A stretch of DNA of 43,136 nt, from positions 1-43,136 of the forward strand of contig JAOABY010000014.1 of the NCBI GenBank assembly GCA_026418115.1, in the 5' to 3' direction. Below, in pieces: positions 3,816 to 31,278 of the stretch; the stretch's first letter is position 1, and every line of letters begins with the position of its first letter. The notes under the pieces were generated by a model. That model did no database searches, was not told where the DNA came from, and was given only the letters and a program-made list of their open reading frames with translations. This DNA comes from Spirochaetaceae bacterium. Its GTDB lineage: Bacteria; Spirochaetota; Spirochaetia; Treponematales; Rectinemataceae. Both the position numbers and the translations under genes were made by a program.

Positions 3816-5872
3816 GATTCGACCACTCCGGAATAGAGCTGTTGCCATCGAATCGGCAGGATCAGATCAGTTTCCCCTGAGGCCTGGCGCCAGGCTCCGG
3901 CAAACGCTGCAGGTATGAGGAGTGCAGGCAATGCTCCGCAGGAACGTGGGGCAGCTGATTTCTCATCTTCAAGAAAACTGATGGTGATGACTGAAAGAAG
4001 TCTGCTTCGTGATATTTCCCGGTCCAGACCTTGAGCAGCAATGCAGTCGGCGAGTGCCCGGCAGGCCATCTTCCGGAGTGCTGACGCTGCACATGCGGGA
4101 TCAAGAATCTTGCCAGCATAGATATGAAGATCGGCGCGGCGAACTTCGAGTTCGCCGATATTTCTGTTGAAGGCGAGTTCCACTGCCGCAGCACCCCACG
4201 CCGGACGCCCTTCTGAAGGCAGGCTGGCTGCATCATCCTGGTAGCGGAGTCTTGCAAATGCACGGACTGTACAGGGGAGTCCCTGCCGGAAACGGAGCTT
4301 CTGCATGCGCTGTGCAGCTCTTCGTATGATTTCCGCCAGGGATCTCATGCTGGCTGATGGAAGAAGTGCAGCTTCGCTTCGGCCCATCTCGGCGGGGGGC
4401 AGGAAAACCACGTTCTGGATCGGAATACCGAGAATCTGTGCTGCAAGAATGGCGAGAGCCTTTCTCTGACGCGTCGACCCATGGTGCGCAGAGGACTCGA
4501 TATGCAGTATCAAGTCTCTCTGCAGTGTCATGTTGACAGACACCAGGCCGGCCATATCGCTGAGCGGTATCGGATACACAGGCTGCTGCGCGAGTGCTAT
4601 GCCTATGCCTCTGGTCAGCGTTTCCCGATATCCAGGGTTACGCTGCAGGACAAGTTCATTGGCAGCCCATGATCGCCTGAAATCGGAGCGGGAAGCCAAC
4701 TTGTTCAGCAATAATGAAGGAAGGCCATGCACCATGCCGGTTTCCGGATCGGTCGAACGCTCCTGCTTCTCCTGCACAAGCGAAGCGATAAGTGTTTCAG
4801 GCAAGACGCCAAGTGCGCCCGCAGCACGCAAGGCGTGGCTCGTGAATACTGCATGAAGCGCACCGTTGGCTGGACATCCCAGCAGTCCCATGGGCTGTGT
4901 ATCGGTACGGATGGCGCATGCCAGAACAGAACAGGCAACATCTGCAGGAAGCTGCCGCAAGGGAGAGAGCATGGTTTCCAGAATCTGATGGGCGAGCAGG
5001 CTATATGGACCGACAGGTATAGCAAAGCGTGCTTCGACTGATACAAGACGCCGCGCCGACCTGGACCAGGTCGTCTGCATATAGCCTATGACTCCATGTC
5101 CAACAGGAAGAAATCTTCCCTGGCTTTTCCACGGCACGATTATCCTGACAGGTCGCTTCAGCTCTCGCGCAGCAAGCGCAGCCTGAGCCGCCAGTATTGC
5201 AGTGTACCAGACTTGCAGGTCGTTGCTGCTCTCCATGTCCAGCGGTTTGATGAGAATATCCCGAACATCGGCCCCTGTCATCGTTCCAACAGCTTTTCGG
5301 ACCATCCCTGGCCAGAGGGTTCTGCAGTATATCGTGAGTTTGTCATAGTCCCATGAGGCTGCTACTTCTTCCGACAGCAGGGGAATTTCTGAAGGAGCCA
5401 TTTCAATGCTGCTTGCAAAGGAGAGAGTGTCCTGCTGGTCTGTCTGTGATGAAGGACTGGTCGGATGCTGCAGGCGGATCATGGCAGCAATATGCCCGGA
5501 TGAGAATACATGCCAGTCGGTTCGTGCCACTCGGGGGAAAGGCTCCATGCTCACGGAAGCCGTCAGGGCAAGATTTTCTGCAAGCAGAGGATCAGGCCCG
5601 AGCACAAGTCCAACCGGTTCACCAACGTAGCGCACATTCGACCATGCCAGCACGGGGATCTGTGTGCCGGCGATATCAATCGATGGCTCGGCTCCAAGAA
5701 GGCCTGCGTGCAGGAGACTGCATCCAGGTGCCTGTTCCGCAAGCGAAATGCTGCTTACCCTTCCAGGAGCAGCTGGAGCCCGGATTGCAAAACCATACAA
5801 TGCATCCGGAAGATCCAGTTCCCTGAGTGAGGGATGGCTCCATGGATCCAGTTCATGCTTCTGCCGCGGCAT
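3812..5872 (-). CDS. Divergent xanthine dehydrogenase/aldehyde oxidase-like molybdopterin subunit
   Basis: Large molybdopterin-binding subunit of a xanthine dehydrogenase/aldehyde oxidase-like enzyme, about 686 aa, somewhat short for the family (usually about 730-780). The a/b hammerhead domain is clear from VRYVGEPVGLVLG near residue 95. The later block AAQAALAARELKRPVRIIV matches the start of the first molybdopterin domain, but the glycine loop GGGFGGK that normally precedes it is not recognisable. Near the C terminus the pattern GEPP-PAA reads GALPALLIPAA, so the catalytic glutamate position is Ala647 (codon at 3932-3934). The start at 5872 overlaps the NusG-like gene by 20 bases. The order NusG-like, Mo, 2Fe-2S, FAD suggests one transcript. 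It could be an active enzyme with altered chemistry, a non-catalytic relative or a decaying gene. Substrate unknown. Confidence 0.8.
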   Translation of the reverse strand: MPRQKHELDPWSHPSLRELDLPDALYGFAIRAPAAPGRVSSISLAEQAPGCSLLHAGLLGAEPSIDIAGTQIPVLAWSNVRYVGEPVGLVLGPDPLLAENLALTASVSMEPFPRVARTDWHVFSSGHIAAMIRLQHPTSPSSQTDQQDTLSFASSIEMAPSEIPLLSEEVAASWDYDKLTIYCRTLWPGMVRKAVGTMTGADVRDILIKPLDMESSNDLQVWYTAILAAQAALAARELKRPVRIIVPWKSQGRFLPVGHGVIGYMQTTWSRSARRLVSVEARFAIPVGPYSLLAHQILETMLSPLRQLPADVACSVLACAIRTDTQPMGLLGCPANGALHAVFTSHALRAAGALGVLPETLIASLVQEKQERSTDPETGMVHGLPSLLLNKLASRSDFRRSWAANELVLQRNPGYRETLTRGIGIALAQQPVYPIPLSDMAGLVSVNMTLQRDLILHIESSAHHGSTRQRKALAILAAQILGIPIQNVVFLPPAEMGRSEAALLPSASMRSLAEIIRRAAQRMQKLRFRQGLPCTVRAFARLRYQDDAASLPSEGRPAWGAAAVELAFNRNIGELEVRRADLHIYAGKILDPACAASALRKMACRALADCIAAQGLDREISRSRLLSVITISFLEDEKSAAPRSCGALPALLIPAAFAGAWRQASGETDLILPIRWQQLYSGVVES

Positions 5873-6389
5873 GTTCCGTATCCGGTTCCAGCAGGTCAAA
5901 GGCAAGGTCCAGCGTCATGGGGGAGGCCGCAAGAGTAATCCGTATCTTTGCCCTCCGTTTCCGACGGTCGACCTTGATGATATTGCCTTCCATGCCTTTC
6001 AATGGCCCATCGACGACTCTGATTCGTTGATGTTCATCGAACGTGACCAGGCTTGCAGGAACCCGGCCTCCATATACCAGCCAGTGTCTGATGATTTCAC
6101 TGTCATGCTGGTCGAGCGGATGCGGAGATTCGTTGCTGGGAAGAAAGCGGATGAAATATCTGGAGTGTCGGATGACATAGAGCAGTTCTGCAGGAAGGAC
6201 TTTATCGGGGTATTCCATGAAGATGTAACCGGGAAAGAGCGGAGTGTCCTTGGTGATCATCTTTCCTCGCCTGCGGACATACATCCGTTTCATGATCTTG
6301 TGAAATCGTATGGAACGAACCGACTCACGCATTCGAGCGAGCCATTCGTCTTCGCGGCGGGTGGCAACCTGAATGGCGAAGTAGTTCAT
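5853..6389 (-). CDS. NusG-family transcription elongation factor (specialised paralogue)
   Basis: NusG/RfaH/LoaP-superfamily protein, about 178 aa from the ATG at 6389. It starts with a NusG N-terminal domain (YFAIQVATRREDEW, then LFPGYIFMEY near residues 50-60), which binds the clamp of RNA polymerase. It ends with a KOW motif (RIRVVDGPLKGMEGNI, about 118-133). It is not in the secE-rplK neighbourhood where housekeeping nusG normally sits. Instead it is the first gene of a unit with the molybdenum hydroxylase subunits, with which it overlaps. Specialised NusG paralogues such as RfaH, UpxY and LoaP typically act on the operon they lead, so processive antitermination of this operon is a reasonable inference. 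The longer reading frame to 6497 runs into the ligA promoter and is not supported. Confidence 0.85.
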   Translation of the reverse strand: MNYFAIQVATRREDEWLARMRESVRSIRFHKIMKRMYVRRRGKMITKDTPLFPGYIFMEYPDKVLPAELLYVIRHSRYFIRFLPSNESPHPLDQHDSEIIRHWLVYGGRVPASLVTFDEHQRIRVVDGPLKGMEGNIIKVDRRKRRAKIRITLAASPMTLDLAFDLLEPDTEHAAAEA

Positions 6390-6395
6390 ATGCCG

Positions 6396-6425
6396 AGCAT
6401 AGCACAGGAGGGGCAGAATAGTCAG
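6396..6425 (-). promoter_or_regulatory. Putative promoter of the nusG-like/hydroxylase operon
   Basis: On the minus strand CTGACT (6420-6425) and TATGCT (6396-6401) are 18 bases apart. The -10-like box ends 6 bases before the ATG at 6389. No Shine-Dalgarno sequence precedes the ATG, so the transcript would start at or within a base or two of the start codon. Confidence 0.5.
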
Positions 6426-6440
6426 TATCCGTTCCAGCCT

Positions 6441-6469
6441 TTGACAGAGCACGTGCCGAAAGATACCAT
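6441..6469 (+). promoter_or_regulatory. Putative ligA promoter (leaderless)
   Basis: TTGACA (6441-6446), a 17-base spacer and TACCAT (6464-6469) form a sigma70-like promoter with a perfect -35 and a 4/6 -10. Six bases separate the -10 from the ligA ATG at 6476, and no Shine-Dalgarno sequence is seen, so the mRNA is probably leaderless. Confidence 0.6.
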
Positions 6470-6475
6470 GCAGAC

Positions 6476-8395
6476 ATGACAGAGACAGATCGCACACGCG
6501 TAGAAGAACTGGCTCGAGAAATCCGCCGACATCAACAATTGTACTACAATGGTGAACCTGAAATCACAGACGAGGAATTCGACGCGCTCTGGGACGAACT
6601 GGCCCGGCTGGACCCCTCACATCCCCTCTTGGCTGGCATCGGTGCGGATCGATCTGACCGCTGGCCCAAGCAGACGCATCGCATGGTGATGGGCAGCCTC
6701 TCCAAGGCAACCGACCCGGAATCCTTTCTCGCATGGGCCAGAAAAACCAGGCATCCACTGTACCTCGTACAGTACAAAATGGATGGCGCAAGTCTGGAAC
6801 TGCAGTATGATCATGGCATTCTGGTTCGTGCCGTCACCCGGGGCGATGGTCTAACAGGTGATGATATTACGCCCAATGCCCGCAGAATGCATGGCGCAGT
6901 GCATGATCTTGGAGTTCCCTACACGGGTTCCGTGCGTGGCGAAGTACTCATGTCAAGAGCAATCCATCAGGCGAAATACAGTGACAAGGCGAACTGCCGC
7001 AATGCCGCAAATGGTCTCATGAAACGCAAAGACGGAGCGGGTGTCGATGATCTTGATATCATCTGCTATGACGCAGTGGGTACGCTTGAGGACGGCAAGC
7101 CTCCTTTTACTACTGAAAGGGAAAAGATTGCCTGGCTGCAGGCTTGTGGCTTCATGGTCGTCCAGACAGAGCTCTGCCACACACCCGAAGAAGTCATTGC
7201 CTACAGAGCAAAAGTCATGGATCTCAGGCCCAGACTGCCCTATGACATAGATGGGCTTGTCGTCAAGGGCGATGCGATTGATGAAGAAGATATGAAAAAT
7301 CTGAGGCCAGAGCGCCAGATTGCCTTCAAATTCAGTCCTGAAGAAGCAGTCACGACGCTGGTCGGCATTGAATGGAGCGAATCTGGAGCGACCGTTACTC
7401 CCATCGGCATCGTAGAGCCTGTCCGGCTTGCGGGAACGACGGTCCAGAGAGCCAATCTCTGCAATCCCGACATGATACGATCGATGGATCTCAGAATAGG
7501 CTCACGTGTGGTGATCACAAAACGGGGAGAAATCATTCCCAAGATTGAATCGCTGGTAGAAAATCCACCAGGTTCTGTGCAGATCGAGATGCCGGCTACC
7601 TGTTCAGCATGCGGAGGATCTCTGGTGGATGAAGGCAGCCGTCTCTACTGCCCGAATCCCGGATGTCCAGGCAAGGCATACCATAGACTGGAGAAGTGGC
7701 TCGCGGTAGTCGATGTCAAGGATATCGGTCCCGCTCTGCTCCAGCGCCTTTTTGAATCGGGCAGAGTGCGCCGGATACCCGACCTGTATTCCCTTACTGT
7801 CGAGGAATTGCTCGCCTATGAACGCATGGGCGAGAGGCTGGCCCAGAAGATTGTGCGCAACCTCGGAGCCCGGAATGAGGTAAGTCTGGCGGAATTCATT
7901 GCAGGTTTTGACATTGAGGGCATAGGTATCCTGATGGCGGAAAAGCTGGTAGCTGCAGGATACGACACGCTCGATCGACTCCTTGCTGCGCAGGTAGAAG
8001 ATATCGTCAAGGTGGAAGGATTTGCAGAGATTACTGCCGGTACGCTCGTGCAGGGACTCAGGATGCTGAGAAAGGACATGGAAGAACTGCTTGCTCGAGG
8101 GTATATTCGCGTGCGGCAGCCTGAGCGGCAGGCATCTGGGGGTTCGTCACTGGCAGGCAAGAGCTTCTGCTTCACAGGTGAGCTGCGCTCCATGAAGCGA
8201 AGCGAGGCTGAGAAACTGGTTCGCTCGCTGGGCGGCATTGCGCGTGCTTCTGTGACAAAGGATCTCGATTATCTTGTTACCAACGATCCCGCTTCGGGTT
8301 CGGAGAAGAACCGAAAAGCCAGAGAATATGGCATCCGCATTCTTGACGAGGAAACCTTTCTTGCCATGACGGGGCAGCGCCAGAAGGAGCAATGA
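6476..8395 (+). CDS. ligA: NAD-dependent DNA ligase LigA
   Basis: NAD+-dependent DNA ligase, 639 aa (family usually 660-680), which seals nicks in replication and repair. Domains in order: Ia (YYNGEPEITDEEFDAL, residues about 23-38), adenylation domain with KMDG (K101 is the expected AMP-accepting lysine), OB fold, four-cysteine zinc finger (CSACGG...CPNPGC), helix-hairpin-helix repeats, and a C-terminal BRCT domain (FCFTGEL onward). Several usually invariant residues differ. The glutamate two positions before the catalytic lysine is Gln99 (QYKMDG instead of E-x-K-x-DG), and the block usually reading RAPRWAIAYKFP is RPERQIAFKFS. This looks like a clade-specific LigA rather than damage, because the frame and all domains are intact. 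It is followed by a DUF167 gene with an ATGA overlap. Confidence 0.96.
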   Translation: MTETDRTRVEELAREIRRHQQLYYNGEPEITDEEFDALWDELARLDPSHPLLAGIGADRSDRWPKQTHRMVMGSLSKATDPESFLAWARKTRHPLYLVQYKMDGASLELQYDHGILVRAVTRGDGLTGDDITPNARRMHGAVHDLGVPYTGSVRGEVLMSRAIHQAKYSDKANCRNAANGLMKRKDGAGVDDLDIICYDAVGTLEDGKPPFTTEREKIAWLQACGFMVVQTELCHTPEEVIAYRAKVMDLRPRLPYDIDGLVVKGDAIDEEDMKNLRPERQIAFKFSPEEAVTTLVGIEWSESGATVTPIGIVEPVRLAGTTVQRANLCNPDMIRSMDLRIGSRVVITKRGEIIPKIESLVENPPGSVQIEMPATCSACGGSLVDEGSRLYCPNPGCPGKAYHRLEKWLAVVDVKDIGPALLQRLFESGRVRRIPDLYSLTVEELLAYERMGERLAQKIVRNLGARNEVSLAEFIAGFDIEGIGILMAEKLVAAGYDTLDRLLAAQVEDIVKVEGFAEITAGTLVQGLRMLRKDMEELLARGYIRVRQPERQASGGSSLAGKSFCFTGELRSMKRSEAEKLVRSLGGIARASVTKDLDYLVTNDPASGSEKNRKAREYGIRILDEETFLAMTGQRQKEQ

Positions 8396-27247: not shown

Positions 27248-30004
27248 CTATCGGCCATGGCAATGCTTGTATTTTTTGCCGGAACCACAAGGGCAGGGGT
27301 CATTTCTGCCAATTTTCTGACCACTTCTGACGACCGTGGCCGCTTCGGGCCGTGATGCAGCTGCTATGGCCGACTCGTGCTGAACCGAGCTGCGTTCCTC
27401 ATCAAAACTTGAGATCGAGGAATGATCTGCCTGCATGGGCTTTGCCGTCTGCTGGTGCGTCGCCGTCGGTGCTTCTTCACGGCGAATGCGAACTCTGAAC
27501 ACCTTTGATGCTATTGCGCTCCGGATATTGGTGATGAGGGACTCGAAGATATCGGAGCCTTCGAGTTTGTATTCAAGAAGAGGGTTCTTCTGGGCATAGC
27601 TGCGCAGATAGACTGCCTCACGCAATGCTTCCATTGCCTCAAGATGATCGAGCCACTTGTCATCGATTTCCTGCAGATAGGAATAGCGGATGAAGAGATT
27701 GAGGTTCTCTCTGCCGGCCAGCTCAATCTTGTTTGCCAGGTCCTGCTCTAGCATCTGCTGGATGGAGGAGAGAAGCGTGCCATTCTGGTACATGCTGCTT
27801 GCCTGTGCGGCAGGCAGCAGAATGCCGAATGTATCGAGCAGGTAGGTGCAGAAATCGGCTGCGGCCTTGCCAGCGTTCGACTTCCATGCATCAGCCATGC
27901 GGCTCATTTCCTGGTCGAGCATCTCAAGCGCCGCTTCCCGCACGCGATCGATGAGATTGTCTTCGGCGAGAATGGCGTTCCGCTGTTCATAGATGAAGTT
28001 GCGCTGCTTGTTGAGCACGTCATCATATTCAAGAAGATGCTTGCGGATTTCGAAATTGCGCTCTTCTACCTTTTTCTGTGCGCTCTCTATGGACTTGTTC
28101 AGAAGGGGATGGTAGATGGGCTCGCCAGGCTTCATGCCCACGCGAGACATCATCTGCTTGAAATTCTCCCCCGCAAAGAGTCGCATCAGATCATCATCGA
28201 GTGAAAGGAAAAACACTGACCGTCCAGGATCGCCCTGGCGCCCTGACCGGCCACGAAGCTGGTTATCAATACGTCGAGATTCATGACGCTCCGTACCTAT
28301 GACACAGAGGCCCCCAAGATTTCTGACTTCTTCGTAATCCTTCCGCCACAGCTCGTATTCTTTGGCAAGCGCAGTCTCGTAGACTTCCTGAGGAGCCTGC
28401 GTGCCGACTTTCTTGCGCGCCCTGAACTCCGGGTTGCCGCCGAGCTTGATATCCGTGCCACGACCGGCCATATTGGTTGCAATGGTCACCGCTCCCTTGG
28501 CGCCAGCCTCAGCAATGATCAAGGCTTCTCGCGCATGATTCTTGGCATTGAGAACTTCGTGACGAATTCCGTTTCTGGTCAGGAGAGCAGAGAGTTTCTC
28601 GGATTTTTCGATCGACACGGTACCCACGAGGATAGGCTGACCTTTCTGATGCAGGGTCTTTATTTCCTGTACGATAGCATCAAGCTTGTCCGATTCGTTG
28701 AGGTAGACAAGATCATCTTCGTCCTTGCGGACCACCGGGCGGTTCGTGGGGATAACTACGACATCGAGGTTGTATATTTTATTAAACTCAGGCGCCTCGG
28801 TATCGGCGGTACCGGTCATGCCGGCTAATTTTTTATACAATCTAAAGTAGTTCTGGAAGGTGATGGTTGCAAGCGTCCTGTTGCGACGGGCTATCTTGAT
28901 ACGCTCCTTGGCTTCGATCGCTTCGTGCAGACCATCCGAATACCTTCTTCCATGCAGGATGCGTCCGGTGAATTCATCCACAATCTGGACCATGTTGTCC
29001 TGCACCACATAGTCGACATCCTTGTGGAAAAGGTGCTGCGCCTTTACCGCCTGGGTGAAGTAGTGCACATATTCGAAATTCTGAGGATCAAAGAGGCTGC
29101 CTTTGATGAGGCCTCGCTTCTGGAGCAGTGATTCGATGTGATTGAGCCCATCACTGGTAAACATGACGCGCTTGGATTTCTCATCAATCCTGAAATCACC
29201 TTCAGATACTTCTCCCTTGCTCTCATCTGGATACTCGCCAGTAGCTGGATCTTTCTTCACTTCGTTGAGAGAGAGCGCAAGTCGGTTGACTTCATTTACC
29301 TTGTAGGTATCATCGTCTGCCGGTCCGGATATGATGAGGGGTGTACGCGCTTCATCTATGAGGATTGAATCGATTTCGTCCACGATACAGTATGCATGAC
29401 CCCGCTGCACTTTCTGGTCGAGAGACCAGACCATGTTGTCCCGCAGATAGTCAAAGCCGAACTCGTTGTTGGTACCGTAGGTGATGTCACAGGCATAGGC
29501 TTCCTTGCGCGCGATGTTATCCATCGAAGACAGTATGCAGCCCACAGTCAGGCCGAGAAATCGATAGATCTGTCCCATCCACTGGCTATCGCGCTCTGCA
29601 AGATAGTCATTGACGGTAATGACATGGACACCTGCTCCCGAAAGGGCATTCAGGTAGGCAGCTGAGACCGAGGAAAGCGTCTTGCCTTCGCCGGTCTTCA
29701 TTTCCACGATCTTGCCCTGATGCAGCACGATACCGCCGAGAATCTGAACATCAAAGGGGCGTTCGCCCAGCACACGTCTGGATGCTTCCCGCACCAGGGC
29801 GAATGCTTCCGGAAGCAGGTCGTCAAGAGTCTCACCCTTGGAAAGTCTTTCCCTGAAGCGGAGTGTCATCCGCGGAAATTCATCATCGGGCAGTGACATG
29901 GCCCATGATTCGAGAGCATTGACCTTATGCAGAAGAGGCAGCAGCGCCTTGATATCTTTCTCGCGCTTGGTGCCGAACAGAGCAGCAACAATTGAAACAG
30001 GCAT
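27248..30004 (-). CDS. secA: Preprotein translocase ATPase SecA
   Basis: SecA, 918 aa, the ATPase that drives proteins through SecYEG. The DEAD-like motor has Walker A MKTGEGKT (102-109), motif II in [17 protein letters not shown], the preprotein cross-linking domain, and the second nucleotide domain with [13 protein letters not shown]. Near the end are the helical wing and scaffold regions, then a Ser/Ala-rich linker. The C-terminal zinc-binding tail [15 protein letters not shown], used for SecB and ribosome contact, is intact. The ATG at 30004 is preceded by a good promoter only 6 bases away and no ribosome binding site. It is the first gene of secA-rqcH-ABC transporter. Confidence 0.98.
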
Positions 30005-30010
30005 GCAACA

Positions 30011-30039
30011 AGAATACTTTCGTTCTCATGAAGGGTCAA
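30011..30039 (-). promoter_or_regulatory. secA promoter (leaderless)
   Basis: On the minus strand TTGACC (30034-30039), a 17-base spacer and TATTCT (30011-30016) match sigma70 promoters at 5/6 and 5/6. Six bases separate the -10 from the secA ATG. The spacer contains the -35 of the divergent lipoprotein promoter. Confidence 0.65.
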
Positions 30040-30052
30040 GGAATGCTATACT
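30023..30052 (+). promoter_or_regulatory. Putative lipoprotein-gene promoter (leaderless)
   Basis: TTCTCA (30023-30028) and TATACT (30047-30052, 5/6) are 18 bases apart. Eight bases separate the -10 from the ATG at 30061, and no Shine-Dalgarno sequence is seen. The secA -35 lies in the spacer of this promoter, so the two are interlocked. Confidence 0.55.
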
Positions 30053-30060
30053 CCTCTCAG

Positions 30061-31278
30061 ATGCTGACACACAGGGATCCCCCAGGAAGGCTTTTCCTGT
30101 TGGGAATGATACTTGCTTTCTCAATCGGTCTGGTGGCATGCACATCGGGCCAGCCCGGTTCTTCCCATCTGCTGTTTTCGCTGGGGTATGGCAATACGGA
30201 TCTTGCCTTCAGTCCGCCTTCCGGGCCTTCGACCGGTTTTGGACTGGCAGTGCAGCGAGGTATGATCACGGTCTTTTCCAGGAAAGATCGCAAGCTGGTT
30301 CGCTACTCAGCCTATGGAGAACCGCTCTTCATGCTCTATGACCCTGCAGGCGGGGCGGTGCCTCAGCTTCTGGGGCTTCGTCTATCCGCGGGCGACAATG
30401 GCACAGAAACGGCGCGCAGCCAGGGGAGAGCTGCAGTGCAGACGTCTTTCGTCGATCCCTGGCCATGGGCAATCGCTTCGGACCAGACGGTCTATATTGC
30501 AGATATCCTGGGAAATGGCAGTTCACAGCTTGCACCAAGACCTGGCGCCCGCCATATGATTCGCAAGTTTGACTCGCAGGGTACAGAAGAAGATCCTATA
30601 GGAGCGGATGGTCAGGGGGGCAGCGCCTTGAAGCCCATCCAGGGGCTCGAAGCACTGGCACAGGGTCTGCTTGCCGTGACGACATCCGAAGAGGCTGGGA
30701 TCAGAATCTCACTGTATGATCGCAACGGAGCGCTCACTTCCTCTCTTGTGCTGGATTATCGGAATCTGCCGGTTCCCCTTGCAGTCACCAAGGCACTCCA
30801 GAACCGTGACCATCTCATGGTTGTGCCCGATATCGAGTCTATCCTGCAGGGAACTCTCAAGGGAGAACCTGTTGCCATACTCCATGTTCAATATCACCTG
30901 GCTGCTCAGCCTGCTGGTACTGAAGGTACTTCTGACATACTGGAGACTCATTCATGGCTGTTGATTGCAAATCTGGCCAATGGCTCGATACGTGCTGCAT
31001 TTCCATTTGAGGATCCCAAGACCAGGCGCAAGATACCGCAGCTTGTCGGACTGTCGGAGGGAAGTGTGGTAGGCATTCTCTGGGATGACGAGGGGGCAGG
31101 TGGTACTGCATGCCTGTTTGATGCCCTTCAGGGAAGAATAATGCGCCGCATACGATTTGATCCTGGCCATGGGACATCACTGCTTTCAATCAAGGTGGCC
31201 GATGACGGAAGGCTCTATCTGCTGGCAGCTGCATCCGATCGCATGTCGATTCACGCATGGCGGCTGACAGGGCGTTGA
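30061..31278 (+). CDS. Conserved lipoprotein, probable beta-propeller
   Basis: Predicted lipoprotein of about 405 aa. From the ATG at 30061 the N terminus is a basic head (RDPPGR), a hydrophobic core (LFLLGMILAFSIGL) and the lipobox LVAC, giving an N-terminal Cys27. The rest has repeated short strands with patterns such as ITVFSRKDRKLVRYSAYGEP, VYIADILGN and GRLYLLAAASD, typical of NHL or WD-like propellers. It resembles a family of spirochaete lipoproteins annotated as conserved hypothetical (LIC_12708-like), though I cannot confirm that without a search. Earlier in-frame ATGs at 29992, 30028 and 30043 would place the promoter inside the gene and give a poor signal peptide. The role is unknown. 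Confidence 0.78.
   Translation: MLTHRDPPGRLFLLGMILAFSIGLVACTSGQPGSSHLLFSLGYGNTDLAFSPPSGPSTGFGLAVQRGMITVFSRKDRKLVRYSAYGEPLFMLYDPAGGAVPQLLGLRLSAGDNGTETARSQGRAAVQTSFVDPWPWAIASDQTVYIADILGNGSSQLAPRPGARHMIRKFDSQGTEEDPIGADGQGGSALKPIQGLEALAQGLLAVTTSEEAGIRISLYDRNGALTSSLVLDYRNLPVPLAVTKALQNRDHLMVVPDIESILQGTLKGEPVAILHVQYHLAAQPAGTEGTSDILETHSWLLIANLANGSIRAAFPFEDPKTRRKIPQLVGLSEGSVVGILWDDEGAGGTACLFDALQGRIMRRIRFDPGHGTSLLSIKVADDGRLYLLAAASDRMSIHAWRLTGR

Follow-up and report, generated by a model that had tools for sequence, protein, structure and literature searches.

The closest described arrangements come from Escherichia coli, from plasmid pLS20 and from the spirochaete Leptospira interrogans. At the bidirectional promoters of E. 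coli, one stretch of DNA is read into divergent mRNAs by RNA polymerase bound in either of two mutually exclusive orientations; the two directions share a −10 element, and most of the paired starts are separated by 10, 18 or 23 bp (PMC12825309). At five of these promoters basal activity is too low for the two directions to compete, and competition arises only when one side is strongly activated (PMC12825309). The divergent promoters Pc and Pr of pLS20 also have overlapping elements, so that binding should be exclusive, and they form a switch that has its own regulator, RcoLS20, and involves looping of the DNA (PMC4207663). In L. interrogans about 440 mapped mRNAs are leaderless, starting on the start codon or immediately beside it; such starts are thus known as common in Leptospira and as a feature of spirochaetes (PMC5243855).

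The locus described here lies in a 43,136-nucleotide stretch of Spirochaetaceae DNA (the window), in which 56 bases (30005–30060) separate secA from a divergently transcribed lipoprotein gene. It resembles the E. coli bidirectional promoters in that a single stretch of DNA would accept polymerase in two exclusive orientations and give rise to divergent mRNAs. However, its −10 elements are 30 bp apart and its predicted starts about 56 bp apart, the overlap runs through spacers and −35 elements, both mRNAs appear to be leaderless, and in relatives a −35 is shared; it therefore lies outside the bidirectional promoter as defined by Warman et al. (a shared −10, with starts 10–23 bp apart). Unlike pLS20, neither secA nor the lipoprotein gene is a known regulator, and the locus has no known operator. 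The predicted starts are of the type mapped in L. interrogans, although the main text of that study makes no mention of secA, and the putative leaderless secA described here belongs to another order (PMC5243855). Plausibly, the locus represents a new form of overlapping divergent promoters, with mutual exclusion and a conserved leaderless secA. Literature searches returned nothing published about a shared −35 or about the secA–lipoprotein locus, a result that is not proof of absence.

Results

Promoter elements in the intergenic gap

A promoter scan placed two candidate promoters in the 56-base gap, at exactly the positions given in the preliminary description (30011–30039 for secA and 30023–30052 for the lipoprotein gene), and each −35 lies inside the spacer of the opposing promoter, as had been proposed there. 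The core elements overlap on opposite strands, which is what defines overlapping divergent promoters. The individual features are collected in Table 1.

Table 1. Features of the secA–lipoprotein locus in the window.
Feature	Position	Strand	Basis and remarks
secA coding sequence	27248..30004	-	ATG 30004; Pfam SecA domains, NCBIfam TIGR00963 1110 bits
Lipoprotein gene	30061..31278	+	ATG 30061; LIC_12708-like beta-propeller lipoprotein, lipobox Cys27
Conserved block, 42 bp	30011..30052	.	limits are the two −10 elements; identity among seven congeners
secA −10, TATTCT	30011..30016	-	promoter scan; pairwise identity 1.0, seven congeners
Lipoprotein −35, TTCTCA	30023..30028	+	promoter scan; weak (4/6), within secA spacer
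secA −35, TTGACC, with flanks CTTGACCC	30034..30039	-	promoter scan; identity 1.0 in seven congeners
TG of extended −10 (TGn), lipoprotein promoter	30044..30045	+	promoter scan; identity 1.0, seven congeners
Lipoprotein −10, TATACT	30047..30052	+	promoter scan and congener comparison

The spacers measure 17 bp at the secA promoter and 18 bp at the lipoprotein promoter, and the −10 elements end 6 nt and 8 nt, respectively, before the two ATG codons. Since the usual distance between −10 and start is ∼7 bp (PMC12825309), both transcripts should start no more than about two bases from the ATG, which agrees with the earlier proposal that both promoters put the start there and would make both mRNAs leaderless. 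No RNA family was found in the gap.

Taken alone, the window proves neither promoter, because the consensus scan of 10 kb around the gap returned four promoter-like sites where shuffled sequence would give 5.4, and because 10% of arbitrary positions are preceded, at an acceptable spacing, by a 4/6 ‘−35’ such as TTCTCA. Comparison with relatives establishes what the window sequence does not: it supports both predicted promoters, their fixed distance from the ATG and their overlap. Among the seven congeners of the Rectinema group in which the gap is intact, mean pairwise identity is 0.927 over the 42-bp block, as against 0.366 at 229 fourfold-degenerate secA sites, and it falls to 0.43 and 0.39 just outside the two −10 elements. 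The block is thus bounded as two real promoters predict. The weak TTCTCA is identical across the five congeners that are interlocked like the window (0.905 identity over all seven), its variation being confined to two genomes whose lipoprotein promoter has moved.

Gene order in relatives

Searches recovered the lipoprotein from 53 of 58 relatives, and in a wider sample of the order 271 of 291 genomes had it. SecA was matched in 57 of the 58, one of them (G013) by a C-terminal motif only, so that 56 were counted. Among the 53 relatives with both genes, the two are divergent with fewer than 460 bases between the matches in 40, lie 1.2–1.4 kb apart in three (G010, G016 and G025), and are far apart or on different contigs in ten. 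In G010 and G016 an ORF intervenes (L019:178-1218 and L026:259-1347, respectively), which we take to be M23 peptidase-like.

Variation of the overlap

The interlock seen in the window recurs in five of the eight informative genomes of the genus (G000, G002, G003, G007 and G008); the remaining two of the ten are G001, which has neither gene in the data, and G004, which is cut inside secA. In G005 and G006 the lipoprotein −10 is displaced by ∼20 bp, the −10 region having apparently been duplicated, and a TATACT/TATAAT further downstream stands 7 nt before a shifted lipoprotein ATG. In G009 the secA and lipoprotein promoters are on separate contigs (L006:1-160 and L035:1-175) whose ends are unlike the block. 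Both breaks carry the same 8-base sequence, CAAGGAAT, and the sequences at the ends match six and nine times in the genome, which we interpret as an insertion sequence that entered the interlock and duplicated an 8-base target; the secA promoter is intact.

Outside the genus, one genome of family f3 (G050) has the −11 offset between −35 elements that is found in the window. In other f1 genera the lipoprotein promoters lie at +11 to +81 where they can be placed, and none could be assigned in f4; the overlap is lost in seven other f1 genomes with both promoters placed. On this comparison the exact interlock is a local feature, and its loss from some congeners speaks against its being strictly required. 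The preliminary description had looked to the conservation of the intergenic layout in related genomes; what is conserved is the divergent adjacency, whereas the exact interlock is present in five of the eight informative congeners.

Helical phasing of the −35 offsets was considered for close pairs (−11, −1, +9, +11 and +21), but the pattern is post hoc, is not followed by wider offsets at new loci (+47, +67, +78 and +94), and is not claimed. The new loci also added further −1 offsets, probably through shared descent.

A shared −35 element in two families

A different overlap is seen in families f3 and f5, where a single TTGACAA acts as the −35 of both promoters, reading TTGACA for the lipoprotein gene and TTGTCA for secA on the opposite strand. 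A strict pattern for this arrangement matched 14 of 60 new loci and none in 50 shuffles of each. When given 10 loci of an earlier set (nine from f3 or f5, one from f4), it matched three more (G038, G053 and G057), making 17 loci in all. A looser pattern, set after three loci had been viewed (G191, G243 and G254) and allowing a lipoprotein leader of up to 35 nt and a secA distance of up to 10, matched 20 of 68 adjacent loci. These comprised 11 of 16 in f3 and 9 of 17 in f5 (20 of 33 together), with none of the 35 adjacent loci in f1, f2 and f4. TTGTCA was found at none of the eight f3 and f5 secA promoters that do not adjoin the lipoprotein gene, as expected if TTGTCA is the price of sharing; adjacent loci that carry TTGTCA and do not share also exist (G148 and G259).

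Leaderless starts

A secA promoter matching at least 8 of 12 consensus positions, with its −10 ending 5–8 nt before the ATG, is present at 37 of the 40 adjacent loci, where shuffles would give 0.5. Nine of 15 further secA 5′ ends also have one (those of G031, G033, G034, G039, G047 and G052 fail), so that a promoter abuts the ATG in 46 of 55 secA 5′ ends of the order and nine miss the threshold. Of the 60 new lipoprotein loci, hand-picked to cover many genera, 28 had a recognisable secA start, and 23 of the 28 have such a promoter at 5–9 nt. The secA mRNA is very probably leaderless, an instance of a known start type that seems to have been kept across an order.

Background frequencies were taken from genome stretches with longest-ORF gene calls, in which start codons are approximate. 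In the G007 stretches, at a score of at least 9, leaderless-like promoters precede 8 of the 37 genes that have a divergent neighbour (0.4 expected) and 2 of the remaining 92 (0.5 expected). The G000 counts, which leave out secA and the lipoprotein gene, are 1 of 62 genes with a divergent neighbour (0.1 expected) and 5 of 98 others (0.45 expected), or 6 of 160 overall (0.6 expected). The stretches sampled across the genus contain 55 pairs of divergent neighbours; four have leaderless-like promoters on both sides, and the secA–lipoprotein pair alone overlaps. Elsewhere in the window, at 5853–8395, a NusG-like gene (− strand) and a NAD-dependent DNA ligase-like gene (+ strand, ATG 6476), both identified by reading the sequence, have leaderless-like promoters on both sides; they are 86 bases apart and have a −35 offset of +21.

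The lipoprotein

The lipoprotein scores 95.6 bits against NF047780 (LIC_12708) over nearly the full profile, below the curated cut-off of 150, and is a relative of the LIC_12708 family, not a member by the cut-off rule. It has no match in Pfam. The lipobox Cys27 is nearly invariant in the alignment (A1), and the structure model is a confidently predicted beta-propeller (mean pLDDT 84) whose best Foldseek matches are NHL propellers. Weaker matches include chains of the E. coli beta-barrel assembly machine (TM about 0.35), which could serve as a lead towards a role for the lipoprotein in outer-membrane assembly. The lipoprotein would itself be expected to depend on the Sec pathway, which makes its pairing with secA suggestive.

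Discussion

We consider it likely that the gap holds two back-to-back leaderless promoters of housekeeping type, which overlap and whose constitutive outputs are largely independent. Each would yield an mRNA that starts at or next to its own start codon, and both would presumably be recognised in the sigma-70 manner. Leaderless promoters have all their parts, −35 through +1, packed directly upstream of the ATG, so that two cannot fit into a 56-bp gap unless they overlap. The footprint of RNA polymerase should leave no room for two molecules on sites that overlap in this way. Polymerase would thus bind in either orientation and never in both, and the earlier statement that the two promoters cannot be occupied at once is sound as geometry. 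Competition would be expected only once one promoter becomes strongly active; any coupling of expression would depend on how busy the two promoters are, and strong coupling is not anticipated. Across the relatives, the divergent pair is conserved in this order of spirochaetes and its promoters overlap repeatedly, by the interlock here and by a shared −35 in two families.

The overlap could instead be a regulatory device in which competition for polymerase reciprocally couples the expression of SecA and the lipoprotein, as the preliminary description suggested. The geometry is exclusive, an overlap recurs as the shared −35 of f3 and f5, and one-sided activation does bring about competition at the E. 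coli bidirectional promoters (PMC12825309). Nevertheless, the overlap is lost in G005, G006, G009 and seven other f1 genomes, f4 has no placeable lipoprotein promoter, G010 and G016 carry an ORF between the genes, and the five E. coli promoters do not compete at basal activity (PMC12825309). Reciprocal coupling is not supported as a general rule, and we regard it as unlikely at this locus. A related proposal extends to the order as a whole: where the −35 elements overlap or are the same, each binding of polymerase would be a choice between SecA and a secreted beta-propeller lipoprotein, and the overlap would be kept to fix the ratio or the noise of the two products. That a shared −35 recurs and persists in f3 and f5 leaves room for a selected function and hints that tight packing may bear on regulation; we regard this proposal as a tentative possibility.

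Another explanation starts from the 18 positions of the block that lie outside the four hexamers, where identity is also 0.905. This exceeds what spacers need and might reflect a bound regulator that controls both genes together. Moreover, 15 of 58 relatives have a single copy of the extended motif CTTGACCC-N12-14-AAGTATNCT, and only at secA. No regulon is seen, however, since the motif was not found at other genes of those 15 genomes, and its flanks are kept in f1 genera whose lipoprotein promoter sits elsewhere, so much of the excess conservation belongs to the secA promoter. A bound regulator is on balance quite improbable. A repeated operator was also looked for in the window and rejected: AAGGGTCAAGGAA, with up to three mismatches, has 17 sites against 9.7 expected, and its only exact match is in the gap. 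Lastly, the secA promoter alone might be real, with the lipoprotein transcript starting elsewhere and the TTCTCA/TATACT match arising by chance. The frequency of 4/6 matches and the differing promoter positions between genera would allow this, but G002, G003, G007 and G008 carry TATAAT as the lipoprotein −10, in a TG-n-TATAAT whose distance to the ATG, either the sole one or the nearest, is 7 nt, and identity among the five interlocked congeners drops from 0.93 to 0.41 right past this element. We consider such a coincidence highly improbable.

If the overlap of the two leaderless promoters matters, the locus would offer a simple place to measure competition for polymerase between an essential export gene and one of its likely clients, with natural variants supplied by the relatives: interlocked, sharing a −35, displaced, and split by an apparent insertion. 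Even if the overlap does not matter, a secA that is probably leaderless across the order would anchor the annotation of promoters and start codons in spirochaetes.
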